From: Undaria pinnatifida
Lineage: Eukaryota > Sar > Phaeophyceae > Laminariales > Alariaceae
Direction: 5' to 3'
Assembly: GCA_012845835.1 (NCBI GenBank)
Contig: JABAKD010000030.1
Location: forward strand, 12,751,580-12,815,579
Length of the DNA: 64,000 nt
Shown here: positions 6,891 to 59,648 of the stretch, in pieces
How positions within the stretch are numbered: position 1 is the first letter of the stretch
How the letters are laid out: each line of letters opens with the position of its first letter
Translations under genes and position numbers: made by a program
The notes under the pieces: generated by a model
What the model was told of the DNA's origin: nothing
Database searches by the model: none
The model's input: only the letters and a program-made list of their open reading frames with translations

Positions 6891-7264
6891 TAGGAAGACA
6901 CTCAAAATCCCCCGGTACGATTGTTGCCCGCAATGCGTACGGCAGCAGCAGTGCCCGCCTTATTCGTAGCTGGCCCCTCGAGAAAAACCACCTTAGTCCA
7001 AATCAACACGGCAGTAACCCGCTACCCGCCCTGTTAGCGCCTTACCATATACCATGTACGGCGCGTGCCCCCTTTGCGGCGGTCAAAGGGAAAAGTCTTC
7101 AAGTCTCGTACACAGCACGGCCTTGTTTGCAGAGACCGCTACCGGTGTATGATATGGTACACGGCAGTATACAACTACATACTCCGTATAATATACGTAC
7201 GAGGTATGAATATACTCCGGAGTAATCGTTTGTGCATGATTGCCGAAAGTGTGTGATGTAGATA

Positions 7265-8960
7265 TTAGTACCTGGTATTCATTAGTATTTTACCTGGTAT
7301 AGTACAGCAGTAAGTATACCAGGTGCCAGGTATATTGGTCTAAGTATAGCTGCACTGACAGGTGACGGCCGTCGTGTCGGAGTGTCCGAGTCGCGCGCTC
7401 GGGTGGGTAAACTAACTGTACCCGGTAAGCTGCACGTAATTATTCCAGAGTTTGTCCATCCGGCCTTTCATTTTACTGATATCAAGCTGGTATCATACTT
7501 TCTCTGGGAACATGTGCTGGGCACGGGCGGTACGAACCTTTAGGATCGCGAGCGTTCGAAAAACTTTGTCGGATGATGTGATGGGATGATTCTCCTTGCT
7601 GTGTGGTCTTCATACTGCTGTACCGCGTACTACCTGGTACCTGGTACGTACTGGTATTTCTTCTTCGAATACATGCTCGAATCGTAACCGGCATTCCCGT
7701 TGGTCTGTAATCCACTACTACTACTACTACTACTACTACTGCTGTGTCGGTGGTGAGAAATCTAAACCTCGTCTGATCAGATAGATCATCCCGCTTACAC
7801 ATTTCTATTGGTACTGCCGTACCTGGTACTTGGAATAGTTGTTTTTTCGAGTATACGAAGATTCGGTCGTATTATAAATATACCGTAGCGTGAAGACACT
7901 CGCCGTTGCCAGGAGGAGGAGGACGGGGGGGGAGGGTGCCTGCTATGTGACCCTAGATCCGAGATACGAAACGGCGGAAGCTGGAGGCAGTAGTGCTAAG
8001 GGGATAAGATCATACCTGGTTCGTATATTATAAAAAATGAAAATACACTCCAGCTATTAGATTAAATGAAAGCAAAATAAAAAAAGTACAAGCGAGTATT
8101 GTACCAGATATGTATCATAAATATATATATATAAAATCATTTGAACGGCGTCAGCTGTGAGTTCGACATATTTGGGGTCGATACCCATCTTTGCAAGCTG
8201 CGTTATACACCGGTCTTTTGTACGTGTACTTGTAGGCGACGCGTGTTATGTCCGTGTGATGTCCGAGTCGCATGCTCGGGTGGGGTAAAGTGTACAGTGT
8301 AAACTGCACGTTTTTATTGCAGAGTTTGTCGATTCGACTAAGCAAAGTACTGGTGCATGTGTTGGGCAAGGGCGGTACATGCGTTTAGGATCGAGACCGT
8401 TCAAAAAATGTTTGGGATTCTCTGATCAGATTATCTTTCTTGTTTTTCTAGTATTAATAATAGTACTGCCGTTCCGTGTTATATTATGTAGCCGTACCAG
8501 GTACCTGGTACTCGTACTGGTGTTTTTCTTTGGAATACCTCGTACATGGCTCGCATCGCATCGTATCGTGTTGTTGTCGGGTGCTTGTCACGAACTTGTC
8601 ACGAACTTGACCAAAAGACCCACCTCCTCGATCTTTATTTTGTTTGGTCGTTGCGATGAGGGTACAAGGAGGTCAGACAGTTAAGACATTAGATTGCAGT
8701 ACTGCATGTCATGATGTTGAATGTGTCATGTTGTGTCATGTTCGCAGTTGTTCGCAGCTGTTCGCAGTCGTACTCGCAGTATCATCATCCCTGGAACTAT
8801 ATACCAGGTACTTTTTTACTATTAATAGGTATGTAGTCTAGACTATGCATCGGAGTTTTTCTTGTTCCGTTCGAGACTTCCAACTCGTGGTCGCTCACTC
8901 TGTTCTGTGACAAGACGCTTCGAGGAGGGCGCTGACTATTCAAACTAATACCTGGTACTG
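7265..8960. repeat. Cluster of TACCTGGTA palindromic motifs
   Basis: At least eight copies of TACCTGGTA or TACCAGGTA lie here, including the compound GTACCAGGTACCTGGTAC at about 8,494 and a doubled copy at 7,631-7,646. A CTA triplet run lies at 7,712-7,740. No gene is supported. Confidence 0.6.
8030..8235 (+). repeat. Family C fragments
   Basis: It holds ATACACTCCAGCT at 8,042-8,054 and, from about 8,150, CAGCTGTGAGTTCGA followed by GGTCGATACCCATCTTTGCA and AGCTGCGTTATAC. These are the shared terminus in two partial pieces. Confidence 0.5.
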
Positions 8961-18496: not shown

Positions 18497-18996
18497 NNNN
18501 NNNNNNNNNNNNNNNNNNNNNNNNNNNNNNNNNNNNNNNNNNNNNNNNNNNNNNNNNNNNNNNNNNNNNNNNNNNNNNNNNNNNNNNNNNNNNNNNNNNN
18601 NNNNNNNNNNNNNNNNNNNNNNNNNNNNNNNNNNNNNNNNNNNNNNNNNNNNNNNNNNNNNNNNNNNNNNNNNNNNNNNNNNNNNNNNNNNNNNNNNNNN
18701 NNNNNNNNNNNNNNNNNNNNNNNNNNNNNNNNNNNNNNNNNNNNNNNNNNNNNNNNNNNNNNNNNNNNNNNNNNNNNNNNNNNNNNNNNNNNNNNNNNNN
18801 NNNNNNNNNNNNNNNNNNNNNNNNNNNNNNNNNNNNNNNNNNNNNNNNNNNNNNNNNNNNNNNNNNNNNNNNNNNNNNNNNNNNNNNNNNNNNNNNNNNN
18901 NNNNNNNNNNNNNNNNNNNNNNNNNNNNNNNNNNNNNNNNNNNNNNNNNNNNNNNNNNNNNNNNNNNNNNNNNNNNNNNNNNNNNNNNNNNNNNNN
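18497..18996. other. Assembly gap, 500 N
   Basis: Exactly 500 unknown bases, a conventional placeholder length, so the true distance is unknown. Flanks are GC-rich and repeated on the left, with GTATGATGATA-type repeats on the right. Confidence 0.99.
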
Positions 18997-19189
18997 GGAG
19001 GGTATGATGATAGTATGATGGCATGGTGGAGGGTATGATAGCTAAAATCCACTATGAAATAGAGTAAAAAACGAAGTACAAGGTACTACAATGGTAAGTA
19101 CTACAATACCGTAGCATTGATCAAAAGAAACAAATTAATTCAAAGCTTACAGAAAGCATATTAGAGGCTGTCACAGACACCGGCCACAC

Positions 19190-19478
19190 CTTTTTTGCAG
19201 GCCTCTGTACTACTATTAAATAGGCAGGTGAACTCCACGCTTGGTCACTCACGTGCACCTGGTTTTAGATAACCTAATCTTGTATTAGTCCCACAAGCCA
19301 CGGTTAGAGCTAAACAGCTAAACACGTTGCTAGTCCGAGGAGCAAATGCATCATCCCGTTTTTTCTATACGCCCACATGCCTTCAAAGGCGTGTGAAGCC
19401 CTTCTATTTAGTGTCCGTATCCTAGATCTTACGCTTTGTTCAATTAGCCTCCCACGGCAATACCATCTAGCCACTCTC
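19190..19478 (+). repeat. Dispersed repeat family D, copy 1
   Basis: It contains TTGTATTAGTCCCACAAGCC, GTTGCTAGTCCGAGGAG, CACATGCCTTCAAAGGCGTG and GTATCCTAGATCTTACG. An inverted copy lies at about 24,160-24,412 and a direct copy at 46,390-46,600. It runs directly into the C-rich complex. Confidence 0.7.
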
Positions 19479-20449
19479 ACCCTTTCACTCCCACCCCCCC
19501 CACCCCACTCGGCCAACCACCCCCACCCGCATTCCCTTCCCCGTGCTTCCCCCCCGTCTCCTTCCCCCTTACGGCCATTGTCCCCTCAACGCCTACTACT
19601 CCTACCCCCCACACCCATTTCCTCTCCCCCACGTCCACCCACCTCCCGGCCCACTCCCCCCAACGCCTTCCCCCCTGCCCCCATACTTCTGCCTAGCCCC
19701 TCCGCCGTTGCCTGCCCCCCCCCTCCCCTTCCCACTCCCCCCTTCCACTCCCCCCCAACTCCCACGCTCCCCTCCCCCCCCGGCCGACTACACTCCAGCC
19801 GTCTACCCCCCACCACCCCCCCGCTCGCCCCAAACCTCACTTCTCCCCCCCCCCTCCGCTGCTCCCCCGCCTCAACTCCCCCCTCCCCTCCCCCAATTGC
19901 CCCCCGCGCCTCCGCCCCCGCCTCCCGCCCCGCATCCCCCGCCCCCCCGCCCCCCCCTTCCCCCGCACCGACTCTCCATTCCCGATCCCCCACTCCCCAC
20001 CCCCCCACTCCCCGTCCCCCCACAACACCCTCCCCTAACTCCTAGCCCCCTCCCCCACCTTAAAAAAAGTATATACATATAATAGTTGGCCTCGGTTGGC
20101 ACCGGCGCTGTAAAACATTATATGTATATTGGGGTTGGCGTTGGTTGGCAACGACGGTGTAAAACATGCCAATCACTGCGTGAGCTAGATAACCAGGGTA
20201 CCGTTTTTATTATTTATTACTCTTTATTTATTTTTGGCGGTCACCATGATGGTTGTCCAGTTAGATCATATTGTGCGGGGTGGAGAACCCTGACTCCGCA
20301 CAAGGGGAGTGATCGCATCATGTAGTGTGAATATGGCAAGGCACCCACGAAGCAGTTACATAGTAACACCCATTGCTGTCTCTGGAGTGGCCACAACCAG
20401 AAAACAAAATATAACTCATTGGCGCTGTCATCCATAAGCAAGAACGTAG

Positions 20450-20662
20450 GCACAAGGTGCCGAAGAAGTCCGTCCTACGAGCGGCTTTTGGAAGGATGCA
20501 GTTCACCCTTCATGCGACTCGCCGAACACCTCACGGCGCTTCGCGCTTGTTGCAAGCAATGTCTGCCTGGTTGGTGAAAACCCGACGTGCTCCGTCCCGG
20601 CATAGTAGGGATGCGAGGGTCTATAGTCATACGACTACGGCGATGCACAAATTGAGTACACG
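20450..20662 (+). repeat. Second sequence family of the C-rich complex, copy 1
   Basis: GACTCGCCGAACACCTCACG, CCGACGTGCTCCG-like sequence, CATAGTAGGGATGCGAGGGT and ATACGACTACGGCGATGCA, ending TTGAGTACACG and then C-rich DNA. It matches 24,690-24,870. The junction resembles that of the retroelement copies, so it may be the 3' end of a related element. Confidence 0.6.
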
Positions 20663-21449
20663 CCCGCCCCTCCCACGTACCGACCCGCCCCCCCCCACAA
20701 CTCCCCTCCCCCCGCGCCCCCCCCCGCCCACTGCCCCCGCACCCACTCCCCAGTTCCACCCCTTCACGCTCACCCCCACCCACTCCCCACCCCCTATTGC
20801 CGAACACCCCACTCCACTCCCCTCCCCCCCGCTCCGTCCCCCCCACCTCCCGCCCCCCTCCCCCCCCTCCCCCACTCCACCCCTTCACGCTCACCCCCAC
20901 CCACTCCCCACCCCCTACTCCCGAACACCCCACTCCACTCCCCTCCCCCCCGCTCCGCCCCCCCCACCTCTCGCCCCCCTCCCCCCCCTCCCCCACTCCC
21001 CTCTTCCTCCCCCGCCGACTCCCACCCCTCCAACTCTCCCCCCTCAACTCCCCCCCCCCACTCCCCCCCCCCACTCCCCCCCCCCCCACTCCCCCCCCAC
21101 TCCCCCCCATTCCCCCCTCTCCGCTACCCCCCTCTCAACCCCCCCCCCCGAACTCACCCCCCCGTCCACTCTCCCCGCCTTCCACTCCCCGCCCCCCACT
21201 GCCCCTCCCCCACTCCCACCCCCGTACTCCCCCCTCTCCCACTCCCCCCTCCCCAACTCCCCCCCCCCTACTCCCCCCTCCCCCACTTCCCCCCCCTGCT
21301 CCACTGCCCTCATCTCAACTCTCTCCCCCCCACTCACCCCCCCCCACTCCACTCCCCTACTCCCCCACTCACTCTTCCCCCTAAATCCCCCCCCCACTTC
21401 CCCCCCCGCTTCCCCCCCCCACTCCACCTCCCCCCCTCCAACTCCCCGC

Positions 21450-21617
21450 AGGACGGGGATAGGATAAGCAAACAGTATGTAGTATATGGAAGAAGCGTAA
21501 TGAGCGCCCAAATGTTGGAGGTGTCTGTATTAGGGGTAGGAACGATGCTCCGTGTCTCGAAAGGGATGCGTGGTCAATGGTCAAATGACTGAGAAGGTAA
21601 GCAATAAATGAGTACGC
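21450..21617 (+). mobile_element. Non-LTR retroelement 3' end, copy 1
   Basis: GACGGGGATAGGATAAGCAA, GAAGCGTAATGAGCGCCC, ACGATGCTCCGT and GGTCAATGGTCAAATGACT match the 22.75-22.92 kb copy closely. It ends AATGAGTACG and then C-rich DNA. It begins directly in C-rich DNA, so it is heavily 5'-truncated. Confidence 0.7.
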
Positions 21618-21894
21618 CCCCCCTCCCCCTCCCCCACCTCCCACACCCCCTCCCCACACCCCCCCCACACTCCCCCCGCCCCCACCCCCACCCCCACACT
21701 CCCCCCCCCCACTTCCACCCCCCGCCACTCCCCCCCCACCCACTCCCCCCCCACCCACTCCCCCCCCCCCCCACTCCCCTCCCCCACAGCCCCCCTCGAG
21801 TAACACAGTACTAAGAGCAGAACTAGGAATGTACCCACTTAATACAAATAGAGACGTGAGAAAGTTGAAATGGCAATATGAAGTACCAGGTAGA

Positions 21895-21902
21895 TGATGA
21901 TG

Positions 21903-21948
<46 letters not shown>
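21895..21948. repeat. GAT triplet microsatellite
   Basis: About sixteen GAT units, immediately after TACCAGGTA. Confidence 0.9.
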
Positions 21949-21949
<1 letters not shown>

Positions 21950-22007
21950 GTTAGATCATATGCCCGGAAAAAAGTTGCCAGCTTTTTTCTAATGTTATTC
22001 TGTTTAT

Positions 22008-22118
22008 CCTCTGGTGGATGGGGAAAAATGAATTTCAAGTTCACCACACTTCCACGTATTTTCATACACGTCGTGTGTCAATTTAACTCAATTGCATTGG
22101 CAATCCAGCGTTAGCTGG
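22008..22118 (+). repeat. Dispersed repeat family E, copy 1
   Basis: GGTGGATGGGGAAAAATGAA, CACACTTCCACGTATTTTCA, CGTGTGTCAATTTAACTCA and AATCCAGCGTTAGC match 45,525-45,665 in the same order. Confidence 0.6.
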
Positions 22119-22139
22119 CAAAAAGTTGCCAACCATGCA

Positions 22140-22924
22140 TAGCCGATAGGGCTGTATGGGAGAAAACAACAAAAGGACGAGCTCGAATAAGATGGGATAA
22201 CAGAGTCGAGAAAATATGGAAGGATTTAGGGGGAGACCAAGAAGAGGTACTGTCTATAGATAAGCTTGGCGGGTGCAAGACCGAAGTAATTGAAAGAACA
22301 GAAAAAAGGGGAAGGCTAGCGCTAAGAAAGAAGGTGAAAGAGGAAAAGCACTTAGGTAGGGATATACGGGGGGTTGAGGGAAAATATTGGAATGAAAACG
22401 TATTGGCACGGCCCAGTGGATTACGCGAAAAAGCTGAAACTGCGATTTCGTGTAGGGGACCTGGATCTACCAAAAAAAAAGAAAGAGATATAACAGTGTA
22501 ATCGGGGGGAGGAGGACTTGGCTACACATATATGCACGTGTGGTACAACATTAGACAGTAGGACTCACATAGTAGGAGAATGTGAAAGATACAACGAGGA
22601 ACGGAGATGCGTTAGAGGAGGAGATGAGGAAATTTGATATATGTGACATGGAAGAGTTTGGTAGACCAGAGAGTAGCGAGAAAACGATCGCTATCCTATT
22701 AATAGCCTATTAATAGGAGAGATAGATGGTGACCGCAGACGGCGAAACAGGACGACGGGGATAGGATAAGCAAACAATTTCTATATAGTATAAGAAAGAA
22801 GCGTAATGAGCGCCCGAATGTTGAAGGTGTCTGTGCTAGGAGTAGGAACGATGCTCCGTCTCGAAAGGGATGCGCGGTCAATGGTCAAATGACTAAGGCA
22901 ATAAGCAACAAATTAGTACGTCCC
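22140..22924 (+). mobile_element. Non-LTR retroelement fragment with zinc-knuckle-like end, copy 2
   Basis: This is the longest copy. Broken frames read LKLRFRVGDLDLPKKKK, then CTCGTTLDSRTHIVGECERY (a C-x-C...H-x4-C arrangement as found at the C-terminus of many LINE reverse transcriptases), then EEFGRPESSEKTIAIL and FLYSIRKKRNERPNVEGV. Stops and frame changes make it inactive. No reverse-transcriptase catalytic block is present. It ends TTAGTACG and then C-rich DNA. Confidence 0.68.
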
Positions 22925-24159
22925 CCACCCCCCCCCCCAACTCTCCCCACCTAACCCCCCCCGTCCCCCCCTCCGGCCCCACTCCCCCTGCTCCACTGCC
23001 CCCGTCTCAACTCTATGGCCATACGACTTCATACGGCGAAGCCCAAACTGAGTACACCGCCCCAGCCCCCCCACTCCCACCCCAACTCGCCCCACCTAAC
23101 CCCCCCCCTCCCCCACTGCCCTCCCCCACTCCCCGCACTCCACTGCCCCCCTCTCAACTTGAACCCCCCCACTCACCATGCATACCCTCCTGCCCCTCGC
23201 CATTCCCCACCCCCCTACTCCCCCCCATACTCTCCCCCCCACTCTCCCCCCCCCCACCCCCCCTCCCCCCTCCCCCCCACTCCCCCCCCCACTCCCTCCC
23301 CTCCCACTCCCTCCCCCTCACGCCCCCTCCCCCCCATCCGCCCCCCTCTCACTCCCCCCTCCCCACTCCTCCCTCCCCACTCCCCCCCCGTCAACTGCCC
23401 CCTCTCAACTACCCCCCCCTACTCCCCCCACTCTCTCCCCCCCATTCCCCCCTCACTCCCGCCCTCCATCCCCCCCCCAACTCCCCCTCCCACTCCCCCC
23501 CCTACTCCCCCCTCTCCACGCCCCCCCTCCACTCCCACCCCCAACAGCCCCTCCACTTCCCCCCCGACCACCCCCCACGCCCCCCCACTACCCCCCCCTC
23601 CCATTCCTCCCCTCCCCACTCCCCCCCCTCACGTTCCCTCCCCCCCCCCTACTCCCTCCCCTCCCCCACTCCCCCCGCCCCACGCCCCCCCCTCCACTCT
23701 CCCCCCCACTCCCCCCCCACGCCCCCCCCCTCCACTCTCCCCCCCAACATTCCCTCCACTCCCCCCCCCCCCCCCCCACGCCCCCCAACTTCCCCCCGCT
23801 CACTCCCCTCCCCCCACTCCCCCCTCCACTTCCCCCCCCCATTCCCCCCCCGCCACGCCCCCTCCCCTCACTCCTCCCCCTCCAACTCCCTCCCCCCCAC
23901 TCCCCACCCCCCAATCTTCCCTCCACTCTCCCTCCAAACTCTCCCCCTCCAAGTCCCTCCCCTCCACCCCCCCCCCCCCGACTCCGACTCCGCCCACCCC
24001 CTCCCACCCTCCCCACGCCCCCCCCACTGCCCCCCCCCGACTCACCCTCCCCCCCACTCACCTTCCCCCGCTCATCCCCCCTCAACTCTCCCCTCCCCCC
24101 ACTCCCTCTCCCCATCTCTCTCCCTCGTCACCCCCCCCTGTTGTACTATTGCCCTGGGA

Positions 24160-24412
24160 GAATAACAAGGCGTAAGATCTAGGATACGGAAACGATATAA
24201 AAGGGTTTCACATGCCTATGGAGGCATGTGCGTATGGGAAAAAATAAAAAGGTGATGATGCAGTTTCTCCTCGGACTAGCAACGCGTTTAGTTCTGTCCG
24301 TGGCTTGTGGGACTAATACAAGAGCTTATCTAATACAAGTGAGTGGCCAACGTGGAACCTGCCTGTTTAATATTAATAGAGGTACAGAGACCTGCAAGAG
24401 GATGGCCTGTGT
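24160..24412 (-). repeat. Family D, inverted copy 2
   Basis: It reads CGTAAGATCTAGGATACGG, CACATGCCTATGGAGGCATG, CTCCTCGGACTAGCAACGCG and GGCTTGTGGGACTAATACAA, the reverse complement of copy 1. With copy 1 it brackets about 4.7 kb of the C-rich complex. Confidence 0.7.
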
Positions 24413-24514
24413 CTGCAACAGCCCCTAATCTTATACTACCCCACCCCCGCCCCCGCCCCCCCACTCCCCCCCCCCGTATCCCCCTCAACCTACCCCCTCC
24501 CCACTCCCCCAAAT

Positions 24515-24665
24515 GAGCGAAAAGTTTTGATGTAATAAATGGAAGAACGTAGTGAGCGCCCAAATGTTGGAGCCATCTCAATAAGGAGTAAGAACGGTGC
24601 TCCGTCTCGAAAGGAAGATGCGTGGCCAACGGTCAAATGACGAAGGCAAACAACAAAGAGTACGC
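24515..24665 (+). mobile_element. Non-LTR retroelement 3' end, copy 3
   Basis: GAGCGCCCAAATGTTGGAG, AACGGTGCTCCGTCTCGAAA and CGGTCAAATGACGAAGGC match the other copies. It ends AGAGTACG and then CCTCCCCCC. The 5' side is truncated into C-rich DNA. Confidence 0.65.
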
Positions 24666-24689
24666 CTCCCCCCCCCCGACTCCCCGTCC

Positions 24690-24870
24690 CGACAAGTGGT
24701 TCTTAGTAGAATGCAGCTTACCCCCTAGGCGACTCGCCAAATACCTCACGGTGCTTCACGCTTGGTGCACGCGGTCTTTGCCTGGTCGGTGATGCCCGAC
24801 ATGCTCCGCCCCGGCATCGTTGTAGGGATGCAAGGGTCTATGGTCATACGACTACGGCTATGCATAAAAA
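24690..24870 (+). repeat. Second sequence family of the C-rich complex, copy 2
   Basis: GACTCGCCAAATACCTCACG, CCGACATGCTCCGCCCCGGC, TAGGGATGCAAGGGTCTATG and ATACGACTACGGCTATGCA follow copy 1 in order, ending TTAGTGCACC. Shorter ends lie at about 23,015-23,052 and 25,180-25,235. Confidence 0.6.
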
Positions 24871-25299
24871 TTAGTGCACCCCCTCCCCCTACCTCCTTTC
24901 CCTCCCCCTACTCTCACTCCTCCACGCCACCCCCGCACTCCCCCCCCCCCACGTCCGCCCACCCCCAGCCCCACTTCCTCCCCACGCCTTGCCCGCCCCG
25001 CCCTCCTCCTGCATCCTCCTCCTCCTTCCCCCCGCCCGCCCCGCCCCGCCCTTCAACTCACCCCCCCCCACTCATCCTCCCACCCACTCACCCCCCCGTC
25101 CACTCACCCTTCCCGCAACGCTCTCCCCCCACTCCCACCCCCCCTCACCCCCCTCCACCCCCCCGCCCAACTTCTCCATCCCGGTATGGCAGGGATGTAG
25201 GAGTCGATCGTCATACCACCACGGCCATGCGTGAAATGAGTACCCCACACACACACTTCCTCCACCCGACTCCCCCGTCCCCAACTCCCTCCTCCTCAA

Positions 25300-25675
25300 G
25301 TCAACGCAGACGAGAGTAGAACCCACATAGTGCGGGAATGTGAGCTAACTGTGTACAAGGAGGAACGGAATGTGTTAGAGGAATATATGAAAAAAATATG
25401 CGGATGTGACATGGAGAAGTTTGGTACATGAGATGGTAGCGAGAAAACGATCGCTATCCTATGAGATCTTAGACGGTAGCCACGGACGGTCAAACAAGGA
25501 GACGAGATTTGCAAAAAAAAATTATGTAATTTAAATATATTTGGTATGGAAGAAATGTGATGAGCACCCAAATGTTGGAGGTTTGTGTCTCTGTTACGAG
25601 TAGGGACGATGCTCCGTCTCGAAAGAGATGCGTGGTCATTAATGCTCGAGTCACCAAGGCAAGCAACTACTGAGT
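25300..25675 (+). mobile_element. Non-LTR retroelement fragment, copy 4
   Basis: The open part reads NADESRTHIVRECELTVYKE, then EERNVLEEYMKKICGCDMEK, then a stop, then GSEKTIAIL. The non-coding end CACCCAAATGTTGGAGG, GACGATGCTCCGTCTCGAAA matches copies 1-3. It ends TGAGTGTG and then C-rich DNA. Confidence 0.68.
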
Positions 25676-26459
25676 GTGCCCCCCCCCCCCATTCGCCCAC
25701 TCTCCACTCCCCCGCCCCAACTCCCCCCTCCGCCACTCCCACCCCCCACTCCACTCCCACCCTACCACTCCCACCCCGCCACTCCACCCCGCCATTCCCA
25801 CCCCGCCACTCCCACCCCGCCACTCCGACCCCGAACCCGCCACTTCTACCCCCACTCACCCCGTTCCACGCCCTCCTTCACCCATGTCCCTCGCCCACGT
25901 CCACCCGCCCCCCGCCCCACTCCCCCCTAACGCATCCCCACCCTCACCCCCATACCTCCCCCCCCCCCGCTCCCTCCCACCTCCACTCTCATCCCCTCCG
26001 ACTCTCCCTTCTACCTACTCCCCCCCCCCCCTTCACTCCCCCCCTGCCTCACTCCCCCCTCTTCCGCCCCCCCGCCCCCGCCCTCATTCCCTCTTCCCCC
26101 CCCGGCTGTACCCCCTCCTTCCCCTTCTCCCCCCACCCCCCCTCCCCCTCCCCCCTCCCCTCCCCAGCCACTCCCCTCCACTAAACCCTCCACTTAGTGA
26201 CCCCTCCCACCTCGCCCACTCCCACCCTCACTCACCCCCTTTCACTCTCCCCCCCGCCCCCGCCCCCCTTCCCTCCCGCTCCTCACCCTCATCCCCTCCC
26301 TCTACGCCTACTTCTTCCACCCAGGCCCACCCCCCCACCCCCCCAACATCTACTCACTCCCCCTCCAATCCCCGTCCATGCCTCTCCCCTACTCCCCCCT
26401 CCCCTTCCCCCCCAGCGCTTCTCCCAACACACACGTTGCCCCCTCGCATAGCGACAATT

Positions 26460-26655
26460 AACGCCGGTGCCCACATTGCGGAAGGTTCGGTCATTCCCTC
26501 ACAAAACACCAAGACACGCCGTCGCCCACTTTGCTGGAGGTCGTGCCACCTCCTCTCGTTGCACAAAGTCACGCCGGCACCTGCTTTGCGGTAGGTGAGA
26601 CCACCCCCCCGCATTCCACAAGGGACAGCCGGGTGGTCACCTACGTCGCGAAAGG
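26460..26655. repeat. 55-base degenerate tandem repeat
   Basis: ACGCCGGTGCCCACATTGCG, ACGCCGTCGCCCACTTTGCT, ACGCCGGCACCTGCTTTGCG and a fourth variant recur at about 55-base steps, each followed by GAAGGT/GTAGGT and a C-rich piece. Confidence 0.6.
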
Positions 26656-26958
26656 TGAAGGGACTACTAGGTACCTATAGGTTCTAGAAGTGTCGTTTGG
26701 ACCCGTTTGTTGCCTTTCGTTATGGCGTTTGTCGGTTTCATTGCTCTCGTTATTACCTGAAGGGACTACTAGGTACCTATAGGTTCTAGAAGTGTCGTTT
26801 GGGCCCGTTTGTTGCCTTTCGTTATGACGTTCGTCGGTTTCATTGCTCTCGTTATTACCGGTTAGGTATACAGGCTGGTTCAAGTAAAAAAACAAAAACT
26901 CTCTCCTCCACGAATACCGCTTGCAATATCTAGTCAAAGAGTGAATATCTGGTATCAT
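26641..26958 (-). CDS. Hypothetical 105-residue ORF with two 34-residue repeats
   Basis: It has an ATG at 26958 and a stop near 26641. A hydrophobic-aromatic start (REFLFFYLNQPVY) is followed by two tandem 34-residue units beginning GNNESNETD and ending YRYLVVPS. Between the units I see one Lys/Glu change and two silent changes. The repeat keeps frame because its period is 102 bases. There is no known family and no splice or promoter evidence. It could be chance. Confidence 0.2.
   Translation of the reverse strand: MIPDIHSLTRYCKRYSWRREFLFFYLNQPVYLTGNNESNETDERHNERQQTGPNDTSRTYRYLVVPSGNNESNETDKRHNERQQTGPNDTSRTYRYLVVPSPFAT
26656..26861. repeat. 102-base direct tandem duplication
   Basis: Units start at 26,656 and 26,758 (TGAAGGGACTACTAGGTACC) and differ at very few positions. 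The period is a multiple of three. Confidence 0.85.
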
Positions 26959-28570
26959 GTTAATGGTGACACCCGTGACTACTAGTAGTGGAAGAGGGTG
27001 ACATGGCCAACAATAAGTTTACCGGCCTCGGGCTGTCTCTATGAAAAAGAGCGAAACTCGTATCGACCAATGACAGGCCTTCAATTGTTTCAGTAATATT
27101 CAGGCTTTTTCCCAGCGGGGGAGAAAAAAACAATTGTGCGCGTTTTGCATGACCCGGTTGGATGTACTCCAAGGCATGTCTGAAGGTTTCAATAATATTC
27201 GACGTTCTAGGTTGTACCGCATTTTAATTTTTTGTTTTGCATGTTCCTGGGTAAAATATTAGTGTGGTTGGGGTGGTTGGAGAGCAATTTTCGCGCAAAG
27301 AATCGAAGATCTGACCTGCCTGTGTTCATATCAAGCATAAAAGCCCTCTCCCAAAAAACTGATGTGGAGAAAAATAAAACTGCTATGATACCGGATGAAA
27401 AATCCCATGGCCTAGGTACACAACAAAAATCGTGAAAAATAAATAGCCTATTTGTGGATACCATGTCCCCGAACCAACACGCCTAGGGAAAATGTCGAAA
27501 CCCCTTCAACCTTCCAGACATCGTTTCTGGAAGGATCGCTTGGGGAACACGGGAGATTGTCATGTCTAGAACACGCCACGGAGCCTTCCCCTCCACGTTC
27601 CGCTGACGGATCCTCCGCGGCGGATACACCGCCTAGCGGATTCTCCGCAGCGGGACTTTGGAAGGTCCCGCTGGATTGTTCCTTTTATCCGAGAGCTGAG
27701 GGAGCACCGACAACTGCTCGCCCACCGCTCTCACAACAACACAACAACAACTACTACTCCTTCTCCTTGCACTTCTGGGAGTGAGTCCATCTCAACCTGT
27801 CCTGTCTCTCCCTCTGTCAACGGCCTGCTGTATCAGCCCGTGTTGTCTCACACTCCGCCGTCGTAGTTCAACAGTGAGAACACTCTGCTCACGCAGAGAG
27901 AAGTGGGATCACGACCCACCGACGGTCTTGACTACGAATCTTATATTATTTTTTTTTTTCCCCCGACGATTTTGGGTCAAGGAACAAGTCATTCAGGAAC
28001 CATCATGTTTCAGACGAAAAGCGATACCTCGATCATTTCAAGGAAATAACGTGTCTTACTCATTTTTACGCACAAGAGTCCAAACGTCCACGCTCTCTTT
28101 GAGATATAGATCCTGAATGTTTGCACACGTGTTCTGCATGCCCGTCCCGAGGTCTGATCCACGGGGGGGAGGGGGTTATTTTGTTCTTTTTCTATTTTCT
28201 TCTTTTTCTTCGCCGAAAAATTTTGGTGTTCAAGTGGTCCAAATTTTCCGAACAATCTTAACTGACTAAAAATCAGGCGAAAAAAAAAAAAACTTCGAGT
28301 GTGAGGTCTTCGCAAGGGCACATAGAAGACGTGTGCAAAAATTTCACGGTCTGAATCGAAATAACGGCGTGGACATTCGCCGGGGAATATAATTGGGGTT
28401 TTTAACGTGAACCAGCCTGCATGTGTTTTCCAGTCCAACCAAGTAGTAAATTTGGTATATCGAAAACACCCTATTTCCTCATGTTGTACAATGTCTGCGC
28501 ACACCGCGGCTTGCCAGACAAAATATGAACGTCGGCACCTTGCCATTTCCGCTCTAAGGCAAAGGGATCC

Positions 28571-28682
28571 ACCAACCCACCCACCCACCCACCCACCCAC
28601 CCACCCACCCACCCACCCACCCACCCACCCACCCACCCACCTACCCACCCACCCACCCACCCATCCACCCACCCACCCATCC
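28571..28682. repeat. ACCC tetranucleotide microsatellite
   Basis: About 27 ACCC units with a few T substitutions. 26.9-28.6 kb otherwise shows no supported gene. Confidence 0.95.
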
Positions 28683-29084
28683 AATTGATGTGGTGGTGCA
28701 GCTATAGGTGTGTGTAGTGGTTTCGATGTTTAATGTGTGCTCTCTGCTGTTGGTAGTGCTGCTGAGCACCAGCATGCGGTTGATGTGGTGATGGGCTGCG
28801 CTGTTGTGTTTGTTGTCTTTGTTGGTTCGTGTCTTCCATTTTCTCGATGCTTTAAAAACAGTTTTCTTTGTGAGTGTCTTTTAGAGCGTTGGCTGGGAGT
28901 TTTGGTTTTCTCTGGGCTTTTTAGGAGTTTAGATTTTGTCTATTAATAAGCTATTACGAAGAGAGTATTCATTCGTATGTACAGTGCCCATTTTTTTCGA
29001 AAACTATTTTTGGACGAGAAAAGACGCGTTTCTTCGCCGAAATCGTTCGCGTACAGTACACACGCAACTGCATTAATAGTATAA

Positions 29085-37116: not shown

Positions 37117-59648
<22,532 letters not shown>

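Follow-up and report, generated by a model that had tools for sequence, protein, structure and literature searches.

The stretch analysed here, called the window, comprises 64,000 nucleotides of the kelp Undaria pinnatifida (contig JABAKD010000030.1 of assembly GCA_012845835.1, positions 12,751,580 to 12,815,579), and it carries a C-rich array in which copies of two repeat families are set. The first family, F1, is, judging from its sequence, a long interspersed nuclear element (LINE), that is, a retrotransposon without long terminal repeats. The second, F2, looks like a short interspersed nuclear element (SINE) that uses the machinery of F1. When the window was searched on both strands with profile models of F1 and F2 (E ≤ 1e-3), nine matches were obtained, every one of them on the plus strand and within 20,331–25,675. 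They correspond to eight separate stretches (seven 3' ends and an internal piece of F1), because in the ninth match the F2 model hits an F1 end. Four F1 3' ends lie at 21,613, 22,917, 24,657 and 25,675, and three F2 ends at 20,660, 24,870 and 25,243. A fourth F2 piece, at approximately 23,014–23,057, is too short for the profile search and was seen in alignment A2. A preliminary description of this DNA had listed four F1 fragments and four pieces of a second family, all in plus orientation, and the profile search and alignment A2 confirm this. The copies are present where it had placed them, except that the F1 copy put at 22,140 begins near 21,796, with an interruption at about 21,886–22,089, and the F2 copy put at 20,450 begins near 20,061. 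The F1 and F2 copies recognised by the profile search (20,061–25,683) all run in plus orientation via GAGTAC(G/A) into C-rich DNA. The short, similar junctions that had been described are seen in both alignments: those of F1 (alignment A1) read (T/G)AGTACG or TGAGTGTG, those of F2 (alignment A2) read GAGTACAC, GTGCACC and similar, and each leads straight into C-rich DNA.

The leftmost copy (20,061–20,660) is a full-length, non-coding, SINE-like F2 element of about 600 bp, whose 3' end, ...TTGAGTACA, is followed by C-rich DNA. The F1 3' end at 21,449–21,617, whose 5' truncation falls at model position 819, passes through GAGTACG into a C-run. The next F1 copy (21,796–22,923) measures about 1.1 kb, is truncated at model position 119, has a C-run directly upstream and ends in TTAGTACG followed by a C-run. 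Its coding sequence is decayed, and a C-terminal Cys-His knuckle can be recognised by eye. An F2 3' terminal fragment (23,014–23,057, seen in alignment A2) ends in GAGTACACC. The F1 3' end at 24,513–24,665, truncated at model position 834, again runs through GAGTACG into a C-run; it includes, at 24,598–24,663, an example of the 3' end of about 65 nt that is common to F1 and F2, a possible recognition end for the reverse transcriptase (RT) proposed from sequence homology and without covariation support. Inside the C-tract behind this copy sits a truncated F2 3' part (24,689–24,880) with the end TTAGTGCACC. A further F2 3' terminal fragment (25,172–25,246) ends in GAGTACCCC, and the last F1 3' part (25,309–25,680), truncated at model position 645, ends in GAGTGTG and a C-run. 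All of these F1 3' ends and parts, and the F2 copies from 24,689 onwards, were found by both alignment and profile search. The F1 copies are thus cut at four different model positions (819, 119, 834 and 645), and the F2 copies start at full length and at positions 389 and 500 of the 572-position model. As the truncation points differ, the copies represent independent insertions, and segmental duplication of a single event was rejected.

The 3' kilobase of F1 encodes a decayed RT and a C-terminal sequence. One F1 piece, from locus L062, matches the Pfam family RVT_1 (E 1.3e-7, 32 bits, cut-off 29.6); its best match in the PDB is an R2 protein (3.5e-7), with LINE-1 ORF2 at 0.021. The other three pieces scanned, including the C-terminal one, gave zero Pfam family matches; the Cys-His knuckle near the F1 end was read by eye. 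The copies start at varied model positions and most of their 3' ends fall at model positions 975–983, the pattern of 5' truncation with a constant 3' end. A genome search for the endonuclease family PF03372 yielded 82 matches among the 150 scored of 168 candidates. Comparison of 29 of the 82 PF03372 places with 75 of the 151 places of the RT N-part gave no pair within 8 kb, and a nearby APE domain in F1 found no support among the places compared. Many of the PF03372 places outside it are long frames of 1,000–1,290 amino acids, probably belonging to another LINE. A different abundant LINE was observed in L002, L003, L006 and many other places, with endonuclease-like and RT sequence in open frames of about 1,250–1,267 amino acids; the open frames in many of its listed copies suggest recent activity.

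All genome-wide counts refer to 511,146,479 bases in 68 contigs, and the loci read at letter level (about 297 kb in total) were chosen by F1 matches and are among the best-scoring copies. A search with one F1 3' end gave 3,034 first-look candidates, of which 40 were scored. These 40 copies lie on both chromosome strands, on many contigs and in unrelated flanks, and apart from the window's own copy they are 88–92% identical. The scored copies are dispersed, with C-runs in unrelated flanks, and do not fit a telomere-type target of the SART/TRAS kind. With each locus turned to its first match, the 40 loci contain 60 plus-strand and 3 minus-strand F1 model matches. The combined junction set consists of these loci and 12 further ones, with L009 and L059 dropped as duplicates. 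Here, 55 of 64 3' junctions have a run of at least six C within 25 nt, as against one with at least six A and none with G or T, a pattern unlike the poly(A) tail of the L1 type. After removal of three F2 ends caught by the F1 model, at least six C are found at 53/61 junctions and at least four C at 61/61. The first C-run of at least five starts at a median of 3 nt past the model end and has a median length of 9.5 and a maximum of 38 (n=62); run lengths, here and below, may be off because C-runs are hard to assemble.

The exact F1 end word AGCAACAAATGAGTAC occurs 995 times on the forward strand and 1,030 times on the reverse strand (2,025 in total), and its mirror 0 times on either. On the forward strand, 795 of the 995 words reach C6 within 8 nt; in the listed part of contig C1 this holds for 21/25 forward and 25/31 reverse words. 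Similarly, GAGTAC followed by C10 is found 2,785 times, compared with 40 for the mirror pattern. With such mirror controls, the association is not due to chance. On the chromosome, F1 thus lies about equally often either way round, but its orientation to the C strand is fixed. The preliminary description had regarded copies in both orientations in unrelated flanks as evidence against its proposal; they do occur in both in chromosome terms (995/1,030), but relative to the C strand they do not. Among 35 pairs of F1/F2 neighbours within 1 kb, 30 have the same orientation and 5 the opposite one.

Whether the C-tract was there before the element is judged from a 28-nt interval at the 5' junction, where the boundary is the limit of the model or of homology. 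The background is made up of 2,528 28-mers taken from the flanks of the same F1 loci rather than from randomly chosen parts of the genome; 2.7% of them contain at least five C in a run and 4.5% at least five G. Considering all 5' junctions, runs of at least five C are present in 38/66 and of at least five G in 3 (38/63 and 3/63 without F2 ends). An F1 or F2 end lies within 150 nt upstream in 17 of the 66 copies. The 49 copies free of such an end still have C≥5 in 25/49 and G≥5 in 3/49 (binomial P about 2e-26 for 25/49 against the 2.7% background; Fisher test of C versus G 1e-6); in two of the 49 the F1 model has caught an F2 end, and the boundary there is a limit of homology only. In about half of the copies, 5' C-runs are therefore far above background, and the C-tract preceded the insertion there. 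C-runs are thus enriched at both junctions, as a preference (22/49 are without C≥4 on the 5' side), and this supports target-specific insertion into a simple repeat, the firmer of the two options that the preliminary description had offered. In a grouping of the sequence beside tracts of at least eight C, anchored groups hold 104/241 upstream and 41/241 downstream; this sample is not unbiased, because the loci were chosen by F1.

Short target duplications can be read in a few copies. In L060, CCCCTCACGTCGGCCC (16 nt) stands on both sides of the element; the duplicated target has C4 and the 3' junction C11. In L049, GCCCCCCCGGCTGGAC (16–18 nt) stands on both sides, the target has C7, and C23 separates the element from the 3' copy, which gives C23 then C7. 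Shorter matches, seen by eye, are present in L014, L022 and L026, with 5' runs of 5, 7 and 10 and 3' runs of 12, 18 and 24. A duplication is readable in seven copies altogether, and in five of them the 3' C-run exceeds the 5' run, suggesting an addition of C. Duplications anchored behind a C-run are more frequent than expected, with six observed and 1.03 expected for at least three non-C letters, and two observed and 0.00 expected for at least six (n=32). The second option, an element that carries and expands its own C-rich 3' tail, is supported by the longer 3' runs alongside the targeting. The C tail is well supported in a few copies and a possibility in most. A separate observation concerns L043, where an F1 copy at approximately 7,000–8,350 (minus strand) lies between similar, non-identical sequences ahead of C-runs, perhaps an older target duplication.

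F2 was judged to be non-coding from its length and by eye. Eight full-length copies of 554–600 bp have a common 5' end, and the remaining matches are 5'-truncated at varied points. The F2 model gave 39 matches in the loci read, 4 of which are F1 ends. The last 65 nt or so of F2 are homologous to those of F1, and each of the two models picks up ends of the other family. In all the sequence read, F2 ends are looser than those of F1 (at least four C in 29/33, at least six C in 18/33, at least six G in one), and 21 of 32 meet at least five C within 30 nt, with one meeting at least five G. On the 5' side, C is found in 21/35 and G in 1/35, counting the 39 matches minus the 4 F1 ends. An Rfam search of 19,000–26,500 at E ≤ 1 gave neither an RNA polymerase III-type head (tRNA, 5S, 7SL) nor other Rfam relatives. 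The idea that the shared 3' end forms a conserved RNA stem was rejected: RNAalifold predicted 13 pairs, one of them changed on both sides, with a covariation term of −0.07. Alignment A4 has 15 rows, corresponding to the 17-row A3 without L058 (wrong strand) and L045 (poor). Short, non-coding, with a LINE-like 3' end and 5' truncations, F2 has the features of a SINE partnered with a LINE, and it may well be moved by F1.

The C-rich DNA between the elements of the window amounts to 3,910 non-element letters, 69% of them C, and it is not plain poly-C. It is a degenerate minisatellite of C-runs and ACT, in which CCACTCC occurs 59 times and the mirror CCTCACC 3 times. In the segments longer than 500 bp, the median spacing of ACT is 15 in three of four and 31 in the first. 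One segment (20,661–21,448, plus strand) contains a 121-bp tandem duplication at 20,755–21,006, and the longest segment without F1 or F2 spans 23,058–24,139 (plus strand). The exact ACT-bearing unit CCCCCCACTCCCCCCC is present 7 times in the window against 1 for its mirror. Genome-wide, it occurs at 189 places versus 224 for the mirror; as it is not enriched, the array looks local, and a genome-wide C-rich satellite carrying the elements was rejected. The suggestion that the array is a product of the elements found no support, given these counts and the C-runs that are common without GAGTAC. The genome contains 165,335 runs of at least ten C, and 2,785 places with GAGTAC and C10, a number that leaves out direct GTACCCC junctions and other endings. 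C-tracts therefore do occur without the element, a point that the preliminary description had wanted mapped, and the idea that they are found only where F1 and F2 sit was rejected. Runs of at least ten A number 104,076, and to our knowledge it is unusual for C-runs to outnumber A-runs in this way.

The description of the repeats as all one way applies to F1 and F2, but not to a third repeat of approximately 300 bp, which lies in minus orientation at the array edge (19,160–19,470) and in plus orientation inside the array (24,140–24,440), with 75% identity over 316 columns. To the left, a block of 500 N (18,497–18,996) lies close to the array edge and may be an assembly gap, and just past the array there is a 102-bp tandem duplication with 97% matches (26,656–26,859). 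The window also contains long microsatellites of (CCAC)n at 28,569–28,683, (CTA)n at 41,386–41,635 and (AAC)n at 43,249–43,409. On the minus strand at 39,100–40,000, other repeat families end in ...CCAATTCATC or ...GAGTTGCCCC and are followed by C-runs. Related pieces are found in L005, L018, L042 and L055–L057, in groups of 3–6. Some of these repeats match downstream of the C-run too, so that repeats laced with C, and not further C-tailed elements, may be what is seen here.

We conclude that F1 is probably a C-tailed LINE whose insertion, by target-primed reverse transcription (TPRT), takes place at oligo-C/oligo-G tracts, and that F2 is its SINE-like partner. This reading builds on the near-constant junction, the orientation relative to the C strand, the 5' C-runs in about half of the copies, the few clear duplications, the shared 3' end and the RT match. 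The bottom strand would be nicked within the G-run, and the resulting G-ended 3' hydroxyl would pair with the element RNA at its C tail. The paired primer would start reverse transcription from the conserved GAGTACG end, and the top strand would be cut up to about 16 nt downstream, producing a short duplication that begins inside the C-run. F2, which is non-autonomous and carries the same 3' end of about 65 nt, would be mobilised by F1. A nick in the G-run together with priming by the C tail would fix the orientation of the element to the C strand, and each insertion would leave a C-tract usable by later copies and so lead to the head-to-tail pile-up. The same mechanism would also explain the even orientation on the chromosome, the 5' truncation and the short duplications. 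A complete C/G mirror of the L1–Alu system, in which an oligo-G-nicking endonuclease, a C-tailed RNA and a riding SINE together spread C-tracts through the genome, is in our estimate just as probable as it is improbable.

Several observations weigh against insertion at C-tracts with a C tail. The 5' background was drawn from F1-locus flanks, not random places; 24 of the 49 free copies are without 5' C≥5 (22/47 when the two F2 ends are subtracted), and 22/49 lack even C4 on that side. Copies without a 5' C-run reflect either a weaker need for the target or top-strand cuts that often lose the tract. In most copies a clear duplication is not visible, and unanchored duplication scores are only modestly above permutation (10 against 3.45 expected at scores of at least 18, n=60). 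The 3' runs are shorter in L010 and L070 (5' runs of 11 and 13, 3' runs of 9 and 11). Of 26 copies with paired runs, 15 have the longer run on the 3' side, 8 have it on the 5' side and 3 show no difference; because paired runs are not uniformly longer at the 3' side, tail addition rests on a few copies, and slippage after insertion could be a source of longer runs. Neither an endonuclease nor a full-length F1 is present among the copies read, the N-terminal part lying outside the sequence read, and the predicted fold of the shared end lacks real covariation (1/13 pairs changed on both sides).

The tail and the target could each be thought sufficient on its own. A tailless element that inserts at C-tracts, the 3' C-run being the rest of the target, would account for the enrichment of C-runs on both sides, for the broad overlap of paired 5' and 3' run lengths (3' shorter in 8/26) and for the shorter 3' runs in L010 and L070. 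We consider it unlikely, since L060 has a target of C4 and a 3' run of C11, and L049 a target of C7 and a 3' side of C23 then C7. Conversely, an element with a C tail might insert regardless of sequence, its 5' C-runs arising from nesting in earlier tails. The 3' runs that exceed the 5' runs in L060, L049, L014, L022 and L026, the 17/66 5' junctions within 150 nt of another F1 or F2 end and the 24/49 free copies without a 5' C≥5 run are all compatible with this. It is quite unlikely nevertheless, as 25/49 free copies keep a 5' C-run against a background of 2.7%, with G in 3/49; the nesting considered here is that in F1 and F2 tails, and tails of other families are possible.

Insertion independent of an endonuclease, in which LINE RNA with a C-rich 3' sequence is primed at fragile G/C tracts and the apparent targeting is fragility, appears more doubtful still. 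The genome is rich in C-runs, and no endonuclease was seen for F1, with zero pairs of PF03372 and F1 RT within 8 kb in the part compared (29 of the 82 and 75 of the 151 places). Endonuclease-independent events are typically 3'-truncated, whereas the F1 3' end is near-constant and not 3'-truncated, and L060 and L049 have exact short duplications of the kind that a staggered cut would leave. It is extremely improbable that segmental duplication inside an expanding C-rich minisatellite produced the element copies of this locus. A minisatellite with a 121-bp tandem copy does exist, but each element copy has its own 5' truncation point, the end word is found 2,025 times genome-wide, and the 40 copies that were scored come from many contigs, with unrelated flanks. 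We retain TPRT of a C-tailed LINE at C/G tracts as the preferred reading.

The tails and targets of LINEs are usually discussed in terms of A/T homopolymers, telomere repeats and RNA genes. If the preferred reading is true, a family of thousands of copies shows that the pairing of tail and primer in TPRT can switch from one base pair to the other, and F1 offers a direct test of how far this pairing, rather than the endonuclease alone, sets the choice of target. It may also bear on the C/G-homopolymer richness of this kelp genome, and such elements are of possible interest as insertion tools with unusual targets.

In literature searches for C/G-tract, target-specific and microsatellite LINEs, which left subscription papers mostly uncovered, there was no C/G-tract LINE among the matches listed. 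The 3' ends of FoTeR elements are followed by their target repeat on the C-rich strand (TAACCC) in a single orientation, and FoTeRs are confined to telomeres and carry an RT and a restriction-like endonuclease (PMC12857005). F1 resembles the telomere-associated MoTeR/FoTeR elements of fungi in having one orientation with its 3' end against the C-rich repeat strand. It differs from FoTeR in being dispersed, and a restriction-like endonuclease motif was not noticed by eye in its C-terminal part. Microsatellite-specific LINEs were reportedly described by Kojima and Fujiwara in 2004, and F1 is like these in that its target is a simple sequence; we know of none among them with a C/G homopolymer target.

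TRAS is a telomere-repeat LINE of Bombyx, alongside SART1. For SART1, accurate insertion depends on the A in TTAGG and on a long poly(A) tail (PMC7265360). F1 shares with SART1 and TRAS directional insertion into a simple repeat and a homopolymer tail involved in priming, and it differs from them in that its target is homopolymeric C in varied flanks, dispersed genome-wide, and not the telomere repeat. LINE-1 targets TTTT/A. LINE-1 and Alu move by TPRT with a poly(A) tail (PMC2881922). Unlike these two, F1 and F2 use C/G rather than A/T, F2 shares about 65 nt of 3' end with F1 and not the tail alone, and the endonuclease of F1 is unseen. The likeness to LINE-1 and Alu extends to the 5'-truncated copies, the homopolymer 3' tail, a target tract complementary to that tail, short duplications that start in the tract and a non-autonomous partner.

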